Shown: in pieces, positions 25,229 to 63,860 of the stretch | How positions within the stretch are numbered: the first letter of the stretch is position 1 | How the letters are laid out: every line of letters begins with the position of its first letter | NCBI GenBank assembly: GCA_003220535.1 | Contig: QHSU01000054.1 | Location: forward strand, 1 to 64,000 | DNA from: Candidatus Rokuibacteriota bacterium | Lineage (GTDB): Bacteria; Methylomirabilota; Methylomirabilia; Rokubacteriales; CSP1-6 | DNA length: 64,000 nt | Direction of reading: 5' to 3' | Made by a program: the position numbers and the translations under genes | The notes under the pieces: model-generated | What the model saw: only the letters and a program-made list of their open reading frames with translations | Told to the model about the DNA's origin: nothing | The model's database searches: none

Positions 25229-26338
25229 GTGGGGCAGGGCCAGGCGGCGGTGACGGGGCGCGAGCGGATCGTGGCGGCCTACAAAGGCGGGTACGCCGAC
25301 TGCGTGCCGGCGTACCCGATCGCGGGCTCGTTCGCCGGATGCCTCGACGGCCTGTCGATCGAGGAGTACTGCACGAATCCGACGAAGGCCGTGCGCGCCA
25401 TGCTCAACTACTACGAGCGCTACCAGCCGGACATCATGATCGCCTTCAACGACCTTGCCAAGGAGGCGGAGGCCGTCGGCTGCCACGTGAAGTATTCGGA
25501 CTACGTCGTGCCGTCCATCGACCGGCACGTGCTCCAGGACGACAAGGCGCGGCTCGCGACGCTCGAGATCCCCGACCCGCGGACGGCCGGGCGCCTGCCG
25601 GCGTTCCTCGAGCAGTGCGAGGCGCTCTCGGCGGCGCGGCTGCCGAGCGGGCTCGGCGCCGTCCTGGTGGGACCCTGGACGATCGCCATGCTCCTGCGCA
25701 ATCCGGAGCTGATGTGCCTGGACACGATCGACGACCCGCCGTTCGTCCACGAGCTGATGCGCTTCGCCACCGAGTACGCCAAGCAGTTCGGCGACGCGGT
25801 GCTCGCGACGAAGATCGGCCTCAGCTACACCGATCCGACCGCGTCGTGCTCGCTGGTGGGGCCCGATACCTACCGCGAGTTCATCAAGCCGTACCACCAG
25901 GAGCTGGTGGAGTACTTCCGGGCGAAGAAGGTCGGGACGACGATCCACATCTGCGGGACCACCCACCAGATCCACGAGGACCTGGTCGACGTGGGCTTCG
26001 TCGCGATCACCATCGACCTCGATCAGCAGGCCGATCCCGCGCTGAAGGTGGACCAGCTCGACAAGCTGGTCACGCTCGGGAACCAGCGCGGCGTGGTCGC
26101 GATCGGCAACGTCGACGTAACGATCTTCGAGCGCGCGACGCAGGCCGAGATCGAGGCGGAGGTGCGGCGCTGCATCGACACGGTGGGGCGGCGCTCGCGC
26201 TTCGTCCTGTCGACCTCGTGCGAGCTGCCGCCGCGCGCCAACCCCGACTGCGTCAAGTGGATGATGGACGCCGCGCGCGACTACGGCCGCTATGACCGCA
26301 TCCTCTCCGCCGCCTCGGTTCCCGGGGAAGCGCGGTAG
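25229..26338 (+). CDS. Uroporphyrinogen-decarboxylase-family / MtaA-like methyltransferase
   Basis: 369 residues from GTG 25229 with GAGGAG close upstream (GTG 25250 is an alternative). The UroD/MtaA fold is seen in PDIMIAFNDLAKEAEAVG, VGPWTIAMLLRNPE and SYTDPTASCSLVGPDTYREF. A zinc-thiolate signature HIC (in TTIHICGTT) and a later cysteine in STSCELPP match corrinoid-dependent methylcobamide:thiol methyltransferases rather than haem-pathway UroD. Its last codons, AASVPGEAR then TAG, lie inside a 39-bp inverted repeat and are shared with the unrelated convergent gene, so the natural C-terminus has probably been changed. Confidence 0.8.
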   Translation: MGQGQAAVTGRERIVAAYKGGYADCVPAYPIAGSFAGCLDGLSIEEYCTNPTKAVRAMLNYYERYQPDIMIAFNDLAKEAEAVGCHVKYSDYVVPSIDRHVLQDDKARLATLEIPDPRTAGRLPAFLEQCEALSAARLPSGLGAVLVGPWTIAMLLRNPELMCLDTIDDPPFVHELMRFATEYAKQFGDAVLATKIGLSYTDPTASCSLVGPDTYREFIKPYHQELVEYFRAKKVGTTIHICGTTHQIHEDLVDVGFVAITIDLDQQADPALKVDQLDKLVTLGNQRGVVAIGNVDVTIFERATQAEIEAEVRRCIDTVGRRSRFVLSTSCELPPRANPDCVKWMMDAARDYGRYDRILSAASVPGEAR

Positions 26339-26476
26339 GGGTCGAAAGGACCCGTTCCCTCCAAGAGGGCGACGGGCGCCGCGAGCCCGGATGGAGCCCA
26401 GCCGCCGCGAGGCAGCGGGCGCGTGCAGCGTGGTCCGTCGACCCCTACCGCGCTTCCCCGGGAACCGAGGCGGCGG
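26307..26476. repeat. 170-bp element bounded by perfect 39-bp inverted repeats
   Basis: The 39 bases at 26307-26345 are repeated exactly, in reverse complement, at 26438-26476, with 92 bases between. Each arm contains the last nine codons and the stop of a gene: the methyltransferase on the plus strand and the cyclase on the minus strand both end AASVPGEAR. Folded as RNA this makes a very strong hairpin and would stop transcription from both sides. It may be a miniature inverted-repeat element, a large bidirectional terminator, or, less likely, an assembly inversion. Confidence 0.9.
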
Positions 26477-28121
26477 GCAGGCTCGCGACCCGCTCGATGA
26501 TGCGGACGATCACGGGAGTCGCGCGGTTGCGTAGCGTGACTTCGTGGCGCGGGAAAGCGCCGACATCGACTCCGGCGCGCGTGACGACGTCCTCGGAGAT
26601 CACCAGCTCGCAGCCGTAATCCTTCGTCGCTTGCTCGAGCCTGGCGGCGACGTGGACGGTGTCGCCCACCGCGGTGAAGTAGGTGCTGTCGCCGTAGCCC
26701 ATGCGCCCGACGACCGCGTGGCCGACGTGAATGCCGATGCCCAGGCGCAGCGGCTGCGGGAGCTCGCCGCTCAGCTCGCGGCTCAGTGAGTCCACGCGCA
26801 CGATCATGGCCCGGGCCGCGACCAGTGCCTGACGGCAGCCGGCCTCGGGCCCGCTCTCGACGCCGAAGAGCGCCATGACCCCATCGCCGGTGAACTGGTT
26901 GGCGATGCCGCCCGCGCGCTCGATCGCCGAACCCACGGCCTCGAAGTATCGGTTGAGGAGGTAGACGACGTCGTAGGGCAGCCGCTTCTCGGCCATTCGC
27001 GTGAAGCCGCGGAGGTCGGCGAAGACCACGACGATCTCTTGCTCGACGCCCTGGCGCTCGTGGCCGAGGACCGTGGCGAGGGCGTCGCGGGCTGCCAGCA
27101 GCGGCACGACCTCCGTGCTATGCACGGGCCGGAGCTGGCACGCCAGGCGTACGTCGGGCGGCGCGCCGATGCGGCGGAGCACGCGCCGCTCGGCGTCGCG
27201 CGCCGGCGGCAGCGTGTCGAGGCCGCGCGCAATGCGGACACGGCAGGTCGAGCAGCGCCCGCGTCCCCCGCAGACCGCCGCGTGCGGGAGGCCGGCGTAG
27301 CGGCTTGCCTCGAGGACCGTGAACCCGATGGGTACCGTCACCACCCGGCCGCTCGGGTATGTCAAGCTGACCGAGCGCCAGCGCCAGAGGTACGCGGCCC
27401 GCGCCCCGCGTGCCGCGAGCGTGAGTGCGAGCAGCGCGCCGTAGACCGCGACGATGTTCTCGGCCAGGCCCGTGAGTGTCGCACGTGTCGTGGGCGTGTC
27501 TCGGGGCGTGACGGTCGCGACCCATCCGGGGGAACGCGCCAGCTCGGTGACCTCGATGCCGCCCTGAACGAAGCCGGCGAGCGCCAGCACCGGCACCGCC
27601 ACCGCGATGCCGACGAGCCACACCGCCGAGCGCGGATACCACGGCCTGAACCGAAGCCAGAAGTGGATGCCCATGCAGCCGTGAATCCAGGCGATCAGCA
27701 CCAGGGCCGTCTGGAATGCCCCGCGCCACGGCGAGGCCACCCAGAACACGAGCAACACCCGCGCGTAGGAGTCGTCGATGCCGTAGAAGTCGTGAGCGAG
27801 GCGATTGCCGACGACGTGGGCGGTCAGGAGCGGCGGAATCGTCAAGCCGAGCACGAGCTGCGTCGCCTCCCACGCCGGCATCCTGAGCGTGCGTCGCCGG
27901 TAGAGCGCCCAGAGCCCGAGCAGCGCGTGGGTGACGAGCGCTCCGTAGAGCGCGCCGGCAGCAACGGGATGGCGCCAGAGCAGGAGGAACCACACTCGCC
28001 CGGATTCCATCGCCGCGAGCGAAACGATGCCGAGCGCGTGGTTCAGGAAGTGCGTGGTCAGGTAGGTGAGCAGGATGAGCCCGGTGCCGAGACGGACGAC
28101 GCGGACCGCGTGCGAGCTCAC
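26445..28121 (-). CDS. Membrane - [2Fe-2S] ferredoxin - class III adenylate/guanylate cyclase
   Basis: 558 residues, GTG start. Residues 1-245 carry about six membrane helices with histidines facing the bilayer (H24, H28, H65, H102, H147, H153), reminiscent of haem b anchors. Residues 250-345 are a plant-type ferredoxin: C284, C290, C293 and C328. Residues 362-550 are a class III cyclase with metal aspartates in VFADLRGFT (D369) and FTGDGVMALFG (D413). It probably makes cyclic AMP or GMP in response to redox state or a haem ligand. Its last nine codons come from the inverted repeat at 26438. Confidence 0.86.
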   Translation of the reverse strand: MSSHAVRVVRLGTGLILLTYLTTHFLNHALGIVSLAAMESGRVWFLLLWRHPVAAGALYGALVTHALLGLWALYRRRTLRMPAWEATQLVLGLTIPPLLTAHVVGNRLAHDFYGIDDSYARVLLVFWVASPWRGAFQTALVLIAWIHGCMGIHFWLRFRPWYPRSAVWLVGIAVAVPVLALAGFVQGGIEVTELARSPGWVATVTPRDTPTTRATLTGLAENIVAVYGALLALTLAARGARAAYLWRWRSVSLTYPSGRVVTVPIGFTVLEASRYAGLPHAAVCGGRGRCSTCRVRIARGLDTLPPARDAERRVLRRIGAPPDVRLACQLRPVHSTEVVPLLAARDALATVLGHERQGVEQEIVVVFADLRGFTRMAEKRLPYDVVYLLNRYFEAVGSAIERAGGIANQFTGDGVMALFGVESGPEAGCRQALVAARAMIVRVDSLSRELSGELPQPLRLGIGIHVGHAVVGRMGYGDSTYFTAVGDTVHVAARLEQATKDYGCELVISEDVVTRAGVDVGAFPRHEVTLRNRATPVIVRIIERVASLPAASVPGEAR

Positions 28122-39495: not shown

Positions 39496-42423
39496 ATGTC
39501 GGGCGTGAACGACCTCGAGCACGAGCTGCGCACGGCGATCCGCGGCGACGTCCGCTTCGATGCTGGATCCCGCCTGCTCTATTCGACCGACGCGTCCATG
39601 TACCAGATGGAGCCCGTCGGTGTCGTGATCCCGCGTGACGCCGACGACGTGCGAGCGGCCATCGAGCTCGCCGGCCGGCACCACGTCGCGGTCCTGCCGC
39701 GCGGCGGTGGGACGTCGCTCACCGGCCAGACGGTCAACAACGCCCTCGTGCTCGATTTCTCCCGGCACCTGGACCGCGTGCTCGAGGTGAACACCGAGGA
39801 GCTGTGGGCGCGGGTGCAGCCGGGGCTCGTGCAGGACAACCTGAACCACCACGTGCGCCCGCTCGGGCTGCTCTTCGGTCCCGACACCTCGACATCGAAC
39901 CGGGCGACGCTGGGCGGCATGCTCGGCAACAACTCCGGCGGCTCGCACTCCATCGCCTACGGTCTCACCGTCGAGCACGTCATCGAGCTGACGACGTTGC
40001 TGGCCGACGGCTCGCGCGTCGTGTTCGGCGAGGTGACCCCCGGTGAGTTTGCGGCCAAGTGCCGAGCGCCCGGGCTCGAGGGCCAGATTTACCGCGAGAT
40101 CGCCCGGATCCGGGAGACGTACGCCGCCGAGATCCAGGCCCGCTATCCCGCTCACTGGCGCCGCGTCTCCGGCTACAACCTGAACGAGTTAGTTGGAGCG
40201 GGGTCCGCGAGGCCGGGTCGGACCGAGGGTGGCCTGATACAGGCACGACCCGGCTCCGCAACGCTCAATGTCGCCCGCCTGATCGTCGGCTCCGAGGGCA
40301 CGCTGGTGACGGTGCTCGAGGCGAAGGTCCGGCTCGTGCGCCGCCCGAAGGCGACGGCGCTCGAGGTCATCCACTACCGCGACATCCAGGAGGCGCTCGA
40401 GTCGTCGCAGTCGATCCTCGAGACGGGCCCGTACGCCGTCGAGTTGACCGACAAGATGATCCTCGACCTCGCCCGGAACAATATCGAGCAGTCGCAGCGC
40501 ATGGCCTTCGTCCAGGGCGACCCGGCCGCGATCATGATCGTCGAGTACGCGGGGGACACGGACGCCGAGGTCCGGGCCAAGGTCGAGACGCTCGAGGCGC
40601 GACGGCAGCGCGAGCGGTTCGGCTACGCCGCCCACGCCGCCCACGATGCCGGCGAGCAGCAGTCGATCTGGAAGCTGCGCAAGGCGGGGCTCGGCCTCTT
40701 GCTCGGCATGAAGGGCGACAAGAAGCCGATCGCCTTCGTGGAGGACACGGCCGTCGAGCCCCGGCACCTCGCCGAGTTCGTGACGCGCTTCCGAGAGATC
40801 TTCGCCAAGCACGACACCGTCGGCGCCTACTACGGCCACTGCTCGGTCGGGTGCTTGCACATCCGCCCGGTCATCGACCTCAAGACGCCGCGCGGCCTCG
40901 AGCAGGTGCGCACGATCGCGGACGAGATCGCCGACCTGGTCGTGCGATTCGGCGGCACGCTCTCGAGCGAGCACGGCGACGGGCGGGCGCGCAGCCCGTT
41001 CCTCGAGCGCATGTACGGACCGCGGATCATGCAGGCCTTCCGCGAGCTCAAGCGCGCCTTCGATCCCGACAACCGCATGAATCCCGGCAACATCGTCGCC
41101 CCGGCCGGCCTCACCGACCACTTGCGGTACGGGACCCAGTACACGACCTGGGAGCCCACGACGCTCCTCGACTTCTCCGAGCAGGGTGGGTTCGCGGCGT
41201 CGGTCGAGATGTGCAACGGCGTGGGCGCCTGTCGCAAGACGCTCGAGGGCACCATGTGTCCGTCGTACATGGCGACGAAGGACGAAGAGCACTCGACCCG
41301 CGGTCGCGCCAACGCCCTCCGCGCCGTGCTCTCCGGGCGTCTGCCGCCGGCGGAGTTCACGGGCCGGCGGCTCTACGAGGTGATGGACCTGTGTCTGGAG
41401 TGCAAGGGGTGCAAGGCCGAGTGCCCGGCCAACGTGGACATGGCGAAGCTCAAGTACGAGTTTCTCCATCACTACTACCAGGCCAACGGGCTGCCGCTCC
41501 GCAATCGCCTGTTCGGACGCATCGCGCGGATGAATCGCCTGGGCTCCCGGATGCCGGCGCTTGTCAACTGGGTCTCGGGCCTCGCCCCGAGCCGCTGGGC
41601 GCTCGAGAAGCTCGCGGGGATCGATCGGCGCCGGCCCCTGCCGTCGCTGGCGGCGCAGACGTTCACCGACTGGTTCGCGCGACGGGTACCGCCCGCGGCG
41701 GCGCCGCGCGGCGAGGTCGTGCTGTTCAACGACACCTTCACGACCTACAACGTGCCGGAGATCGCGCAGGCCGCCGTGGAGGTGCTCGAGGCGGCGGGCT
41801 ATCGCGTCGTGCTCGTCGACCGAGAGTGCTGTGGGCGGCCGCTCATCTCCAAGGGCATGCTCGCCGAGGCGCGCGAGCACGCCGCCTGGAACGTCGCGCG
41901 ACTGGCGCCCTACGCGCGGCGCGGCGTGTCGATCGTCGGGCTCGAGCCCTCGTGCCTCTTGACCTTGCGTGACGAGACGGTGGACCTTGTGCGCACCGAC
42001 GACGCGCGGGCCGTCGCCCGGCAGTCCTTCCTGTTCGAGGAGTTCCTGCTCCGCGAGCGCGCCCGTGGGCTGGTCCTGGCGTTCGGCGGCAACGGCCGGA
42101 AGGCGCTGCTCCATGGGCACTGTCATCAGAAGGCGCTCGTCGGGACGGCGCCGACGGTCGGGGCGCTCCGCTGGGCGGGCTTCGCGGTCGAGGAAGTGGA
42201 TTCCGGCTGCTGCGGCATGGCCGGCTCGTTCGGCTTCGAGCGCGAGCATTACGACATCTCGGTCGCGCTCGGCAACCGCCGGCTGGCCCCCGCCGTGAAG
42301 GCGGCCCCGTTGGAGACCGAGATCGTCGCGCCCGGCATCTCCTGTCGTCAGCAGATCCAGCACCTGGCCGGTCGCCGGGCCAAGCACCCGGCCGAAGTTC
42401 TGAGAGAGGCGCTCTCGCGCTAG
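39496..42423 (+). CDS. FAD-linked oxidase fused to iron-sulfur subunit (GlcD-GlcF / D-lactate dehydrogenase type), with in-frame repeat insertion
   Basis: 975 residues from ATG 39496 (GTG 39505 possible). The N-terminal half is a FAD_binding_4/VAO flavoprotein (PRGGGTSLTGQTVNNALVLD near 70; LGGMLGNNSGGSHS near 138), followed by the FAD-oxidase C domain (GDGRARSPFLERMYGP near 495). The C-terminal part carries ferredoxin-like cysteines (CNGVGACRKTLEGTMCPS; CLECKGCKAECP) and two CCG motifs (ECCGRPL, SGCCGMAGSFG) binding clusters. It oxidises a 2-hydroxyacid such as lactate or glycolate. Residues 235-256 (AGSARPGRTEGGLIQARPGSAT) come from the dispersed 68-bp repeat and interrupt GYNLNELV...LNVARLIVGSEGT. 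Confidence 0.88.
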   Translation: MSGVNDLEHELRTAIRGDVRFDAGSRLLYSTDASMYQMEPVGVVIPRDADDVRAAIELAGRHHVAVLPRGGGTSLTGQTVNNALVLDFSRHLDRVLEVNTEELWARVQPGLVQDNLNHHVRPLGLLFGPDTSTSNRATLGGMLGNNSGGSHSIAYGLTVEHVIELTTLLADGSRVVFGEVTPGEFAAKCRAPGLEGQIYREIARIRETYAAEIQARYPAHWRRVSGYNLNELVGAGSARPGRTEGGLIQARPGSATLNVARLIVGSEGTLVTVLEAKVRLVRRPKATALEVIHYRDIQEALESSQSILETGPYAVELTDKMILDLARNNIEQSQRMAFVQGDPAAIMIVEYAGDTDAEVRAKVETLEARRQRERFGYAAHAAHDAGEQQSIWKLRKAGLGLLLGMKGDKKPIAFVEDTAVEPRHLAEFVTRFREIFAKHDTVGAYYGHCSVGCLHIRPVIDLKTPRGLEQVRTIADEIADLVVRFGGTLSSEHGDGRARSPFLERMYGPRIMQAFRELKRAFDPDNRMNPGNIVAPAGLTDHLRYGTQYTTWEPTTLLDFSEQGGFAASVEMCNGVGACRKTLEGTMCPSYMATKDEEHSTRGRANALRAVLSGRLPPAEFTGRRLYEVMDLCLECKGCKAECPANVDMAKLKYEFLHHYYQANGLPLRNRLFGRIARMNRLGSRMPALVNWVSGLAPSRWALEKLAGIDRRRPLPSLAAQTFTDWFARRVPPAAAPRGEVVLFNDTFTTYNVPEIAQAAVEVLEAAGYRVVLVDRECCGRPLISKGMLAEAREHAAWNVARLAPYARRGVSIVGLEPSCLLTLRDETVDLVRTDDARAVARQSFLFEEFLLRERARGLVLAFGGNGRKALLHGHCHQKALVGTAPTVGALRWAGFAVEEVDSGCCGMAGSFGFEREHYDISVALGNRRLAPAVKAAPLETEIVAPGISCRQQIQHLAGRRAKHPAEVLREALSR
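40197..40264 (+). repeat. Dispersed 68-bp repeat, copy A, in frame inside the oxidase gene
   Basis: Aligns without gaps to the copies at 62451 and 63793 (56 of 68 positions match copy C by hand count). An 8-bp outer inverted repeat (CCGGGTCG at 40213, CGACCCGG at 40246) surrounds an inner GCCTG-ATA-CAGGC hairpin. It lies between GYNLNELV and LNVARLIVGSEGT of the oxidase and keeps the frame open. In flavoprotein relatives these two motifs are much closer together. Confidence 0.85.
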
Positions 42424-61151: not shown

Positions 61152-61482
61152 AGGCCCAGAGCCGCCCGGCGCGCTCGACGACCGCATCCACGTCGTCGGC
61201 GAGCATGTGCGAGATACGCGGCGCGCGAGGCGTAGCGCTCCTCGATCGACACGCGCGGGTCGCCGCTCGCCTCCCGCGCGGCGCGGGTCAGCGGGAACGG
61301 AAGCGTCGAGCCCAGCAGGCTCATGAGATCCCCCGGCGCGCCCTGGTCGGGATGAGGTGGGTTCCAGCGACACCGAGACGGAGCACGCCCACGATCTTCT
61401 CGTAGCCGCCCGCCGCGCCGAACGGACGGCCGTCCAGGACCTTCGAGCGCCGCGTGATCTCGAGCGTCGTCACCCCCATCAT
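61136..61482 (-). pseudogene. Degenerate alpha/beta hydrolase (Abhydrolase_10-like)
   Basis: An ATG overlapping the dehydrogenase TGA (ATGA) opens TTLEITRRSKVLDGRPFGAAGGYEKIVG, the typical N-terminus of a roughly 450-residue alpha/beta hydrolase family. This joins within 40 bases to the family's C-terminus, which is spread over three frames: HPDQGAPGDLMSLLGSTLPF, then VSIEERYASRAAYLAH, then ADDVDAVVERAGRLWAF ending at 61136. The catalytic middle is missing. So it is a large internal deletion followed by frameshifts, and its tail overlaps the 3' end of the convergent deacetylase gene. Confidence 0.7.
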
Positions 61483-62477
61483 CGTCTCGACTTGACCGGC
61501 GCGACCACGACGTCCGTGGGCTTGCCGTCGAGGTAGTGCTCGACGTTCTCGATGGCGCGCAGCAGGCCATCGCGGATGACCTCCGGTGTCTGCCCGGCGT
61601 TGTGCGGCGAGAGCACCGCGCTCGACAACGCGAGGAGGGGGTCGCCCGGCTTGAGCGGCTCGTCGTGGAACACATCGAGCCCGGCCCCCGCGATCTTGTT
61701 TTGTCCGAGCGCGTCGAGCAGGGCGTCGCGCTCGACCAGAGCCCCGCGGCCGGTGTTGACGAGGATCGCGGTGGGCTTCATCAGCGAGAACTCGCGGCGC
61801 CCGAGAAAGCCGCGCGTCTCGGGTGCCAGACGCAGGTGGAGCGTGATGACGTCGGCCCGGCGGCAGATCTCGTCCTTCGACGCGGCGCGGGCGCCGAGCG
61901 CCGCGACCGAGGCGACGTCGCCGCGGGCGCTGTACGCCAGGACGTCCATCCCGAAGGCCTTCGCGAGCGCGATCACACGGGCACCGATCTTGCCGGTGCC
62001 GAAGACGCCGAGCGTCTTGCCCAGGAGCTGGGTCAGGAGATCACGGGGCCAGGCGCCGCCCCGCACCTCACGGTCGACGCGCGGGATCCTCCGGGCGGTC
62101 GCCAGCATGAGCGCCAATGTGTGCTCGGCCACGGCGAAGGCGTTGACGCCGGGGGTGTTGCAGACCGTGATCCCGTGCCGCCCGGCGGCGTCGAGGTCGA
62201 TGTTGTCGGTGCCGGTACCCCAGATCGAGATGAGCTCGAGCTTCCGGCACGCCGCCATCACGCCTTCGGTGAACCGCGCGTGCGCCCGGATGTTGATGGC
62301 GACGCGCGCGCTGTCGATGCGCTTGATCAGCTCCGCTTCGTCGTCGGCGCCCCTGGCACTGAAGACGCGCGTCTCGCCGAGTTTCTTGCAGCGGTCGTGC
62401 GCGGGCGTGCCGTTGAAGACGGACGGAAAGTCGTCCGGGATGACTATTGTAACGGGTGCCTTGAGGTCGGCGCTCAT
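61479..62477 (-). CDS. D-2-hydroxyacid dehydrogenase
   Basis: 332 residues. The NAD site is GVFGTGKIGARVIALAKAFG near 155; the catalytic arginine is in VNTGRGALVERD near 237, glutamate in DVFHDEPLKPGDP near 267 and histidine in LSPHNAGQTPEVI near 287, all in place. It interconverts a 2-oxoacid and D-2-hydroxyacid, for example hydroxypyruvate, phosphoglycerate or glyoxylate. The first nine residues (MSADLKAPV) are encoded by dispersed-repeat copy B, so the start codon may have been supplied by the repeat. The neighbouring serine/alanine-glyoxylate aminotransferase would produce such a 2-oxoacid. Confidence 0.88.
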   Translation of the reverse strand: MSADLKAPVTIVIPDDFPSVFNGTPAHDRCKKLGETRVFSARGADDEAELIKRIDSARVAINIRAHARFTEGVMAACRKLELISIWGTGTDNIDLDAAGRHGITVCNTPGVNAFAVAEHTLALMLATARRIPRVDREVRGGAWPRDLLTQLLGKTLGVFGTGKIGARVIALAKAFGMDVLAYSARGDVASVAALGARAASKDEICRRADVITLHLRLAPETRGFLGRREFSLMKPTAILVNTGRGALVERDALLDALGQNKIAGAGLDVFHDEPLKPGDPLLALSSAVLSPHNAGQTPEVIRDGLLRAIENVEHYLDGKPTDVVVAPVKSRR

Positions 62478-62518
62478 CGGGGGTGGCCTGACTCAAGAGC
62501 GACCCGGCTCTGACACGC
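62451..62518 (+). repeat. Dispersed 68-bp repeat, copy B, over the dehydrogenase start
   Basis: Aligns without gaps to copy C at 63793 (54 of 68 positions by hand count), sharing the blocks CGGGTGCC, GGGTGGCCTGA and GACCCGGCTC. Relative to the genes it is antisense: the dehydrogenase ATG (62477) and its first nine codons lie inside it. The inner hairpin is weaker than in copies A and C. Confidence 0.8.
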
Positions 62519-62562: not shown

Positions 62563-63777
62563 CTATCCCGCGTCGGCGAAGGCCGCCTGCGCGGCGGCCA
62601 CACCCGCGCCGGGCTCGCATTTGTAGCCGAGGTCCCGGAGCGCCAGCTCGAGCGCCGACAGGGTCGGCAGCACGTAGTGGGGGCTGGCGGTCATGGCCAT
62701 GGTGCCGATGCGTAGGGTGCTGGTGCGCATCTTGTCGAGGCCCGTGCCGATCAGGATGCCGTACTGGTCCCGCATCCGCGCGACGACGGCGGCCGGCTCG
62801 ATGGCCTTCGGCGTCTTCACGCACGACACGGTGTTGGACAGCAGCGAGGCGTCGGGAAACATCTCGAGCCCCATCGCGGCGAGGCCGCGCCGCACGGCGC
62901 CGCCCGCCACGGCGTGACGGCGGAAGCGGTGGGGCAGCCCTTCCTCGAGGATGAGGCGCGCGGCGACCCGCATCGCGCTGGTGAGGTGTGTCGGGATCGA
63001 CACCGGCTGTCGGCGGGCCGCCCCGTCGGGGACCTTGCCGCCGCGCGACACCGGGATCCAGTGCTCCTTCCACCGGAGCAGGTCGTAGACCAGGCTCGAC
63101 GCCGTGCGCTTGCGTCGCTCCATCGCCGTGAACGCCCGCGGGCTCACCGCGACCAGCCCCATCCCGAGCGGGGCGGCCAGGCACTTCTGCGAGCCGGTCA
63201 TATTGAGGTCGACACCCCACTCGTCGGTGCGCACGTCGATGCCCGCGATCGACGACACGGTGTCGAGGAGGTAGAGCGCGTCGACCGATTTCGCGATGCG
63301 GCCGACGTCCGCCGCCGGATAGGTCGTTCCCGTCGACGTCTCGTTGTGGACGAGCGTGATCGCCTTGGGCCGGAGGCGCTCGGCCTCCCGGGCGAGACGG
63401 TCCATGTCGAGGCGGGCGCCCCACTCGACCGGGAACTCGGTCCAGTCGGCGCCGACCCGGTTCATGATCTCGCGCATCAGCACGCCGAACTGGCCCGCGC
63501 CGACCACGAGCACTCGGTCACCCGGCTCGATCACCGAGAGCGCGCCGGCTTCGAGCGCCGTGCGGCCCGACCCGGGGAGCAGGATGACCTCGCTCTTCGT
63601 CTGGAACACCTCGCGGAGCGCGAGCGTCGTCGGCTCGAGAACTCCCTCGTCGAAGCTCCGGTCGTACTGGATCGCCGAGGGTTGATTCATCGCCTGGATC
63701 ACCGGGAACGGCAGCTCCGTGGGGCCAGGGATCATGAGGACTGGACGCGTGTGGCACTGGGCCCAATTGATCGTCAC
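62563..63777 (-). CDS. Class V aminotransferase (serine-pyruvate / alanine-glyoxylate type)
   Basis: 404 residues, GTG start with AAGGAG upstream. MIPGPTELPFPVIQAMNQ at the start, GSGRTALEAGALSVIEPGD near 69, HNETSTGTTYPAADVGRI near 143 and the PLP lysine in MTGSQKCLAAPLGMG near 193 are typical. It transfers the amino group of serine or alanine to glyoxylate or pyruvate. Together with the 2-hydroxyacid dehydrogenase downstream it could form a serine-cycle-like hydroxypyruvate branch. Repeat copy C lies just upstream of its ribosome site. Confidence 0.9.
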   Translation of the reverse strand: MTINWAQCHTRPVLMIPGPTELPFPVIQAMNQPSAIQYDRSFDEGVLEPTTLALREVFQTKSEVILLPGSGRTALEAGALSVIEPGDRVLVVGAGQFGVLMREIMNRVGADWTEFPVEWGARLDMDRLAREAERLRPKAITLVHNETSTGTTYPAADVGRIAKSVDALYLLDTVSSIAGIDVRTDEWGVDLNMTGSQKCLAAPLGMGLVAVSPRAFTAMERRKRTASSLVYDLLRWKEHWIPVSRGGKVPDGAARRQPVSIPTHLTSAMRVAARLILEEGLPHRFRRHAVAGGAVRRGLAAMGLEMFPDASLLSNTVSCVKTPKAIEPAAVVARMRDQYGILIGTGLDKMRTSTLRIGTMAMTASPHYVLPTLSALELALRDLGYKCEPGAGVAAAQAAFADAG

Positions 63778-63792
63778 CTGAAGCTCCTTTGT

Positions 63793-63860
63793 AGCGGGTG
63801 CCGTGAGATCGGCTCAGACCGAGGGTGGCCTGAGAGAGGCGCGACCCGGCTCCGACACGC
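63793..63860 (+). repeat. Dispersed 68-bp repeat, copy C, upstream of the aminotransferase
   Basis: The copy between the aminotransferase start (63777) and the LAB_N gene end, sharing AGCGGG, GACCGAGGGTGGCCTGA and CGACCCGGCTCCG with copy A. It contains the hairpin GCCT-GAGAG-AGGC; the three central bases differ from copy A but the stem is kept. It would lie in the 5' leader or promoter of the aminotransferase gene. Confidence 0.85.

Follow-up and report, generated by a model that had tools for sequence, protein, structure and literature searches.

The repeat carried by the window (the whole 64,000-nt stretch of DNA that was analysed) is very probably a lineage-specific, dispersed and tandem-expanding element that works in the way of the mycobacterial MIRUs, and copy A, which lies inside a flavoprotein oxidase gene, belongs to it. 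Internal in-frame insertion of the kind seen in copy A is a minor mode; most copies stand between co-directional genes. The carrier is a soil/groundwater bacterium of the Rokubacteria, with Candidatus Rokuibacteriota as its closest named relatives. The source genome (G000, of which the window is contig C1) is a 7.18-Mb MAG that is 94% complete. Its estimated contamination of 8% weighs against our reading, yet the repeat was found in 35 of 95 genomes of the phylum, all of one family, and is absent from the nine other families searched.

The repeat goes well beyond the three copies in the window: BLAST with copy C returned 57 matches in G000, many of them head to tail at a spacing of 66 nt. The genome holds about 50 dispersed copies in arrays of 1–4 units, and array length varies between orthologous sites. 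Read in the direction of coupling, the unit is GCGTGTCGGAGCCG...CTCAGGCCACCCTCGGTC...CCCGCTACAATGA. It measures 66–75 nt, and the 66-nt tandem unit corresponds to 22 codons. The copies are 70–94% alike and no population polymorphic for the repeat was observed, which counts against the preferred reading as regards recent movement.

Copy A (40193..40264, − strand, where it reads ...GCTCCAA) lies in frame within, and antisense to, a 975-residue FAD-linked oxidase of the GlcD/D-LDH type with C-terminal 4Fe-4S dicluster and CCG domains (39496..42423, + strand). Pfam domains FAD_binding_4, FAD-oxidase_C, Fer4_8 and CCG are all present, full-length homologues share 43–90% identity, and D-lactate dehydrogenases are the closest solved folds outside the insert. 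The sequence runs GYNLNELV-GAGSARPGRTEGGLIQARPGSAT-LNVARLIVGSEGTL. That the added peptide is the translation of copy A was correctly recognized from the sequence; its length was given as 22 residues, whereas GAGSARPGRTEGGLIQARPGSAT, encoded by 40195-40263, has 23, which stand in for the four (KERP, KDRP or KNRP) of insert-free homologues, a net gain of 19. The rest of the protein is whole, as had been claimed: the reading frame, the FAD motifs and the Fe-S motifs are undamaged. In the AlphaFold2 model (mean pLDDT 85), inserted residues 237–254 have pLDDT below 50 and no secondary structure, so that the copy A peptide is modelled as an unstructured loop; the sequence-only reading had named insertion in a surface loop as support for tolerance.

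Copy A matches copies B and C with 71–82% identity and the repeat profile over its full length (E = 1.8e-16), and zero chance matches to its core pattern are expected. These figures bear on the suggestion that the resemblance to the repeat is incidental and the insert a loop polymorphism fixed long ago. The loop is indeed variable in the family; after GYNLNEL (loci L031–L060) it is an insertion-tolerant spot throughout, with unrelated inserts of 8 to more than 20 residues in several genera. The DNA-level match nevertheless contradicts this explanation, and so do two sister genomes of the same genus, in which the loop has four residues (KERP in G002, KDRP in G004); we consider it scarcely credible. 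Outer genera of the family and genomes beyond it have KDRP, KNRP or similar, and no distant homologue with the identical 22 residues was found. In-frame insertion of the repeat, proposed from the sequence, is therefore borne out both by the profile match and by the short loop of the sisters.

Among the genomes of the genus that were compared, G001 and G008 have longer versions of the repeat in the oxidase loop, oriented as in G000, and G003, G005, G006 and G007 have other loops of 12–13 residues. In a tree of the oxidase computed with the loop removed, G002 and G004 come out as sisters to the remaining members of the genus. A genome of another genus, G033, has the repeat at the identical position in the opposite orientation (E = 4e-11). 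The site was therefore hit at least two times, once per orientation. The loop of G012 was also considered as an inverted copy and rejected: its profile match falls outside the gene, and the only inverted copy that matches is the loop of G033.

The oxidase is not the only conserved enzyme to have received the repeat. HisH has 35 extra residues where its solved homologue 4gud passes straight from residue 154 to 159, BirA has 22 between positions matching residues 197 and 199 of E. coli BirA, and an ABC transporter has 66, i.e., three units, at the linker joining its membrane and ATPase parts. Internal copies also keep to particular frames. All nine antisense ones, copy A included, use one frame, which is stop-free in 93% of copies, and five of the six sense ones share a common frame that differs from the antisense one. 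The sense frames of the repeat, and one of its antisense frames, nearly always lack stops, which is why a copy that lands within a gene can persist as an in-frame loop peptide. The earlier claim of tolerance is supported by these cases, with the short loop of G002, G004 and most of the family, and with the disordered-loop model; oxidase activity itself probably tolerates the insert.

It was this behavior that had suggested a parallel with the Rickettsia palindromic elements (RPEs). Taken as a full explanation, the parallel would make the repeat a selfish sequence that inserts anywhere, with in-frame cases selected and positions at gene ends reflecting mere tolerance. The copies in the oxidase, HisH, BirA and the ABC transporter, the modelled loop and the published behavior of RPEs (PMC2229807) all speak for it, and for the minority of copies that are internal and in frame the parallel holds. 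It does not extend to the majority, which lie at start/stop overlaps of gene junctions.

Placement was surveyed for 83 elements at 55 distinct sites from G000 and six sister genomes, with gene starts and upstream stops taken from a simple heuristic caller of our own. Of the elements, 60 are found where a co-directional gene starts, 15 are in frame within an ORF and 8 lie elsewhere. Some tallies count orthologous copies repeatedly; figures for distinct sites are given alongside. After the element end CTACA, the commonest sequences are ATGA (25 elements), ATAA (10) and GTGA (3), each with a stop codon, and in the TGA cases the stop at the element end overlaps the downstream start codon (CTACA-ATGA). 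At three distinct sites, copy C among them, the element end instead adjoins a Shine-Dalgarno-like AGGAG. Such ends recur at two orthologous sites (L001/L227/L253 and L002/L230/L246/L260, with AGGAC in L246).

Both remaining copies in the window are of the junction type. Copy C (63789..63860, −) runs directly up to a Shine-Dalgarno-like AGGAG (CTACAA-AGGAGCTTCAG-GTG) that belongs to the following gene, an aminotransferase-like one with a GTG start (62563..63777, −; family by reading of the sequence). Copy B (62447..62518, −) lies where the aminotransferase gene meets a D-3-phosphoglycerate-dehydrogenase-like gene (61479..62477, −), the latter assigned to its family by inspection of the protein and not by domain search. 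The best start of this gene (ATG 62477-62475, −) falls within copy B, so that its first ten residues (MSADLKAPVT) are repeat-encoded; apparently the element took the place of the original start. Elsewhere in the window, a 44-nt inverted repeat (26302-26345 and 26438-26481; 95% complementary, 92 nt apart) lies between genes that look tail-to-tail.

Most copies have the same orientation and immediately precede a start codon, which is also what a fixed regulatory 5′ leader of many genes, a riboswitch-like RNA occasionally misplaced, would look like. We regard a leader as highly improbable: no hit in the window reached an Rfam gathering score and those around copy C were at chance level only, folding is weak (z-scores of −0.08 to −1.98 for four copies/strands), the downstream genes (rplW, hslU, purD, ctaB, mutL) are functionally unrelated, and sister genomes differ in presence and absence of the repeat.

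The frame of the junction copies would suit translation across the MIRU-like element. A mini-ORF mostly opens at the ATGA or GTGA of the upstream stop and closes on the downstream start. We took its frame as the one that starts at the base preceding the upstream stop and runs to the stop at the element end. The count was confined to distinct sites where the gene upstream is co-directional and a stop falls exactly at the element end. The mini-ORF frame is present in 17 of 23 such non-fused sites against the one third expected (p = 8e-5), and in 14 of 18 for G000 alone (p = 1.5e-4). When all such elements are counted, the mini-ORF is open throughout in 24 of 26, and in 19 it starts with an ATG or GTG overlapping the upstream stop. 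Other junction copies form in-frame C-terminal tails of the upstream protein, e.g., of MutS and CtaA. Against the preferred reading, about a third of the junction copies have no stop codon exactly at the end, and a few are in other frames. Variability of the mini-ORF by codon position is flat (0.65, 0.51 and 0.61 bits), with no excess at the third position, and selection on the peptide was rejected on these grounds. The frame seems to be kept and the peptide not; together with the persistence of the frame over several insert lengths, this fits selection on the passage of ribosomes.

Further evidence on placement comes from sites that are empty in some genomes and filled in others. At rplD-rplW, 12 genomes are empty, with an exact 4-nt overlap (ATGA or GTGA) and an insert of 0, and 10 are filled, with ATGA or GTGA upstream of the repeat and ATGA downstream. 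In nine of these ten the insert (65, 98, 107, 128, 134, 152 or 188 nt) keeps the mini-ORF frame fully open. The exception, G029 (L193; 130 nt), has two tandem units each with its own ATGA, which amount to two successive relay ORFs. At hslV-hslU, most genomes have a bare GTGA or ATGA overlap, and G000, G004, G005 and G033 are filled without loss of the relay frame. Three of these (G000, G005 and G033) have GTGA at the upstream end and ATGA at the downstream end; the ATGA was thus carried by the element and is not a simple target duplication. The purD junction is a bare overlap in most genomes, is filled with the relay frame in G000, G001, G007 and G032, and has an out-of-frame insert in G008. 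At ctaA-ctaB the 4-nt overlap is retained in nearly all genomes, and between zero and four repeat units form the end of CtaA, its tails reaching about 98 residues. In G001, G000 and G011 (L267/L142/L277), tails of one to four units leave the ctaB overlap exact; the tails of G003 and G029 have the repeat in other frames or orientation.

Tolerance alone predicts no base-exact placement (at DTGA), whereas most junction copies end base-exactly at the stop/start overlap, with 17 of 23 in one mini-ORF frame, and the empty sites are exact ATGA or GTGA overlaps. In addition, the repeat has no strong palindrome (fold z-scores of about −0.1 to −2.0). An RPE-type selfish repeat is for these reasons unlikely as an account of the family.

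The MIRU-like mechanism that we propose is as follows. The repeat would land at the 4-nt start/stop overlaps (ATGA or GTGA) of co-transcribed genes, bringing its own terminal ATGA. The upstream stop would be retained, mostly overlapping the start of a new mini-ORF; alternatively, the upstream gene would gain an in-frame tail. In either case, the mini-ORF or the tail would terminate at the start codon of the gene that follows. A ribosome ending the upstream gene could then re-initiate first on the relay ORF and next on the gene downstream, i.e., twice, or once in the case of a tail, and re-initiation would keep both flanking genes expressed. By analogy with MIRUs, we infer translation, re-initiation and ribosome delivery across the repeat.

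The repeat presumably spreads by transposition. Its exact 38-nt core pattern is absent from IMG/VR contigs, and a phage vector was accordingly rejected. One end of the repeat is TTGTAGC, which contains GTAG, the tetranucleotide that, according to PMC3733652, tags many REPs; this would suit a REP/BIME-like element mobilized by a RAYT (Y1_Tnp) transposase. However, GTAG is often mutated (GGAG, GTAA, GTCG), and no RAYT gene was found in any of the 14 repeat-bearing genomes searched, the sole Y1_Tnp match being in G010, a genome without the repeat. Mobilization by RAYT is therefore very improbable. MIRUs, too, are not known to have a transposase.

A bolder reading, which we hold to be possible rather than probable, is that a mobile cassette aimed at ATGA/GTGA overlaps arose in Rokubacteria independently of mycobacteria; it would duplicate the overlap, insert a translated relay ORF, be moved by an enzyme with base-exact choice of target and also add disordered peptides to core enzymes. 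If this were true, MIRUs would be a single example within a wider class of translational-coupling parasites. In the literature searched, elements that insert at operon coupling points and leave expression unbroken are described for mycobacteria only, and no account of such repeats in Rokubacteria was found among open-access full texts. The present repeat would be a second such system, from an unrelated phylum, and it offers many pairs of empty and filled sites in core operons (ribosomal proteins, HslVU, heme synthesis). These pairs open questions of target recognition, of relay-ORF translation and of how conserved enzymes accept repeat-encoded loops.

Among known systems, RPEs share with the repeat the in-frame, seemingly tolerated insertion into genes of conserved proteins. 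Structurally the comparison fails: RPEs are 105–146 bp long, with terminal inverted repeats and long stem-loops (PMC2229807), whereas the repeat is 66–75 nt long, weakly structured, mostly at gene junctions and without a long palindrome, so that MIRUs fit better. The MITEs ERIC, RU-2/YPAL and NEMIS (PMC2229807) are likewise small and non-autonomous, and their open frames fuse to genes; the repeat differs in its base-exact DTGA placement and 22-codon tandem unit, and has no terminal inverted repeat beyond a few bases. REP/BIME elements resemble it as short dispersed repeats with GTAG near one end, but its carriers have no RAYT gene (0 of 14 searched).

The closest likeness is to MIRUs, for which a 2025 review cites Supply et al. 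1997 (PMC12548453; see also PMC2734929). According to the review, MIRUs insert at start codons, and a −4 nt spacing couples the ORF within a MIRU to the gene. MIRUs and the repeat are both 40–100 bp, dispersed and often head-to-tail, with variable array length; both go in at DTGA start/stop overlaps, leaving a −4 nt overlap to the gene downstream, and each contains an ORF that connects with the genes on its flanks. The likeness is one of mode of working, and we do not class the repeat in the MIRU sequence family. A search confined to five actinobacterial genomes gave no significant DNA match (best E 0.1). The Rokubacteria repeat differs from MIRUs in its phylum (Methylomirabilota/Rokubacteria), in its 66-nt unit and in its occurrence, in both orientations, in frame within genes.
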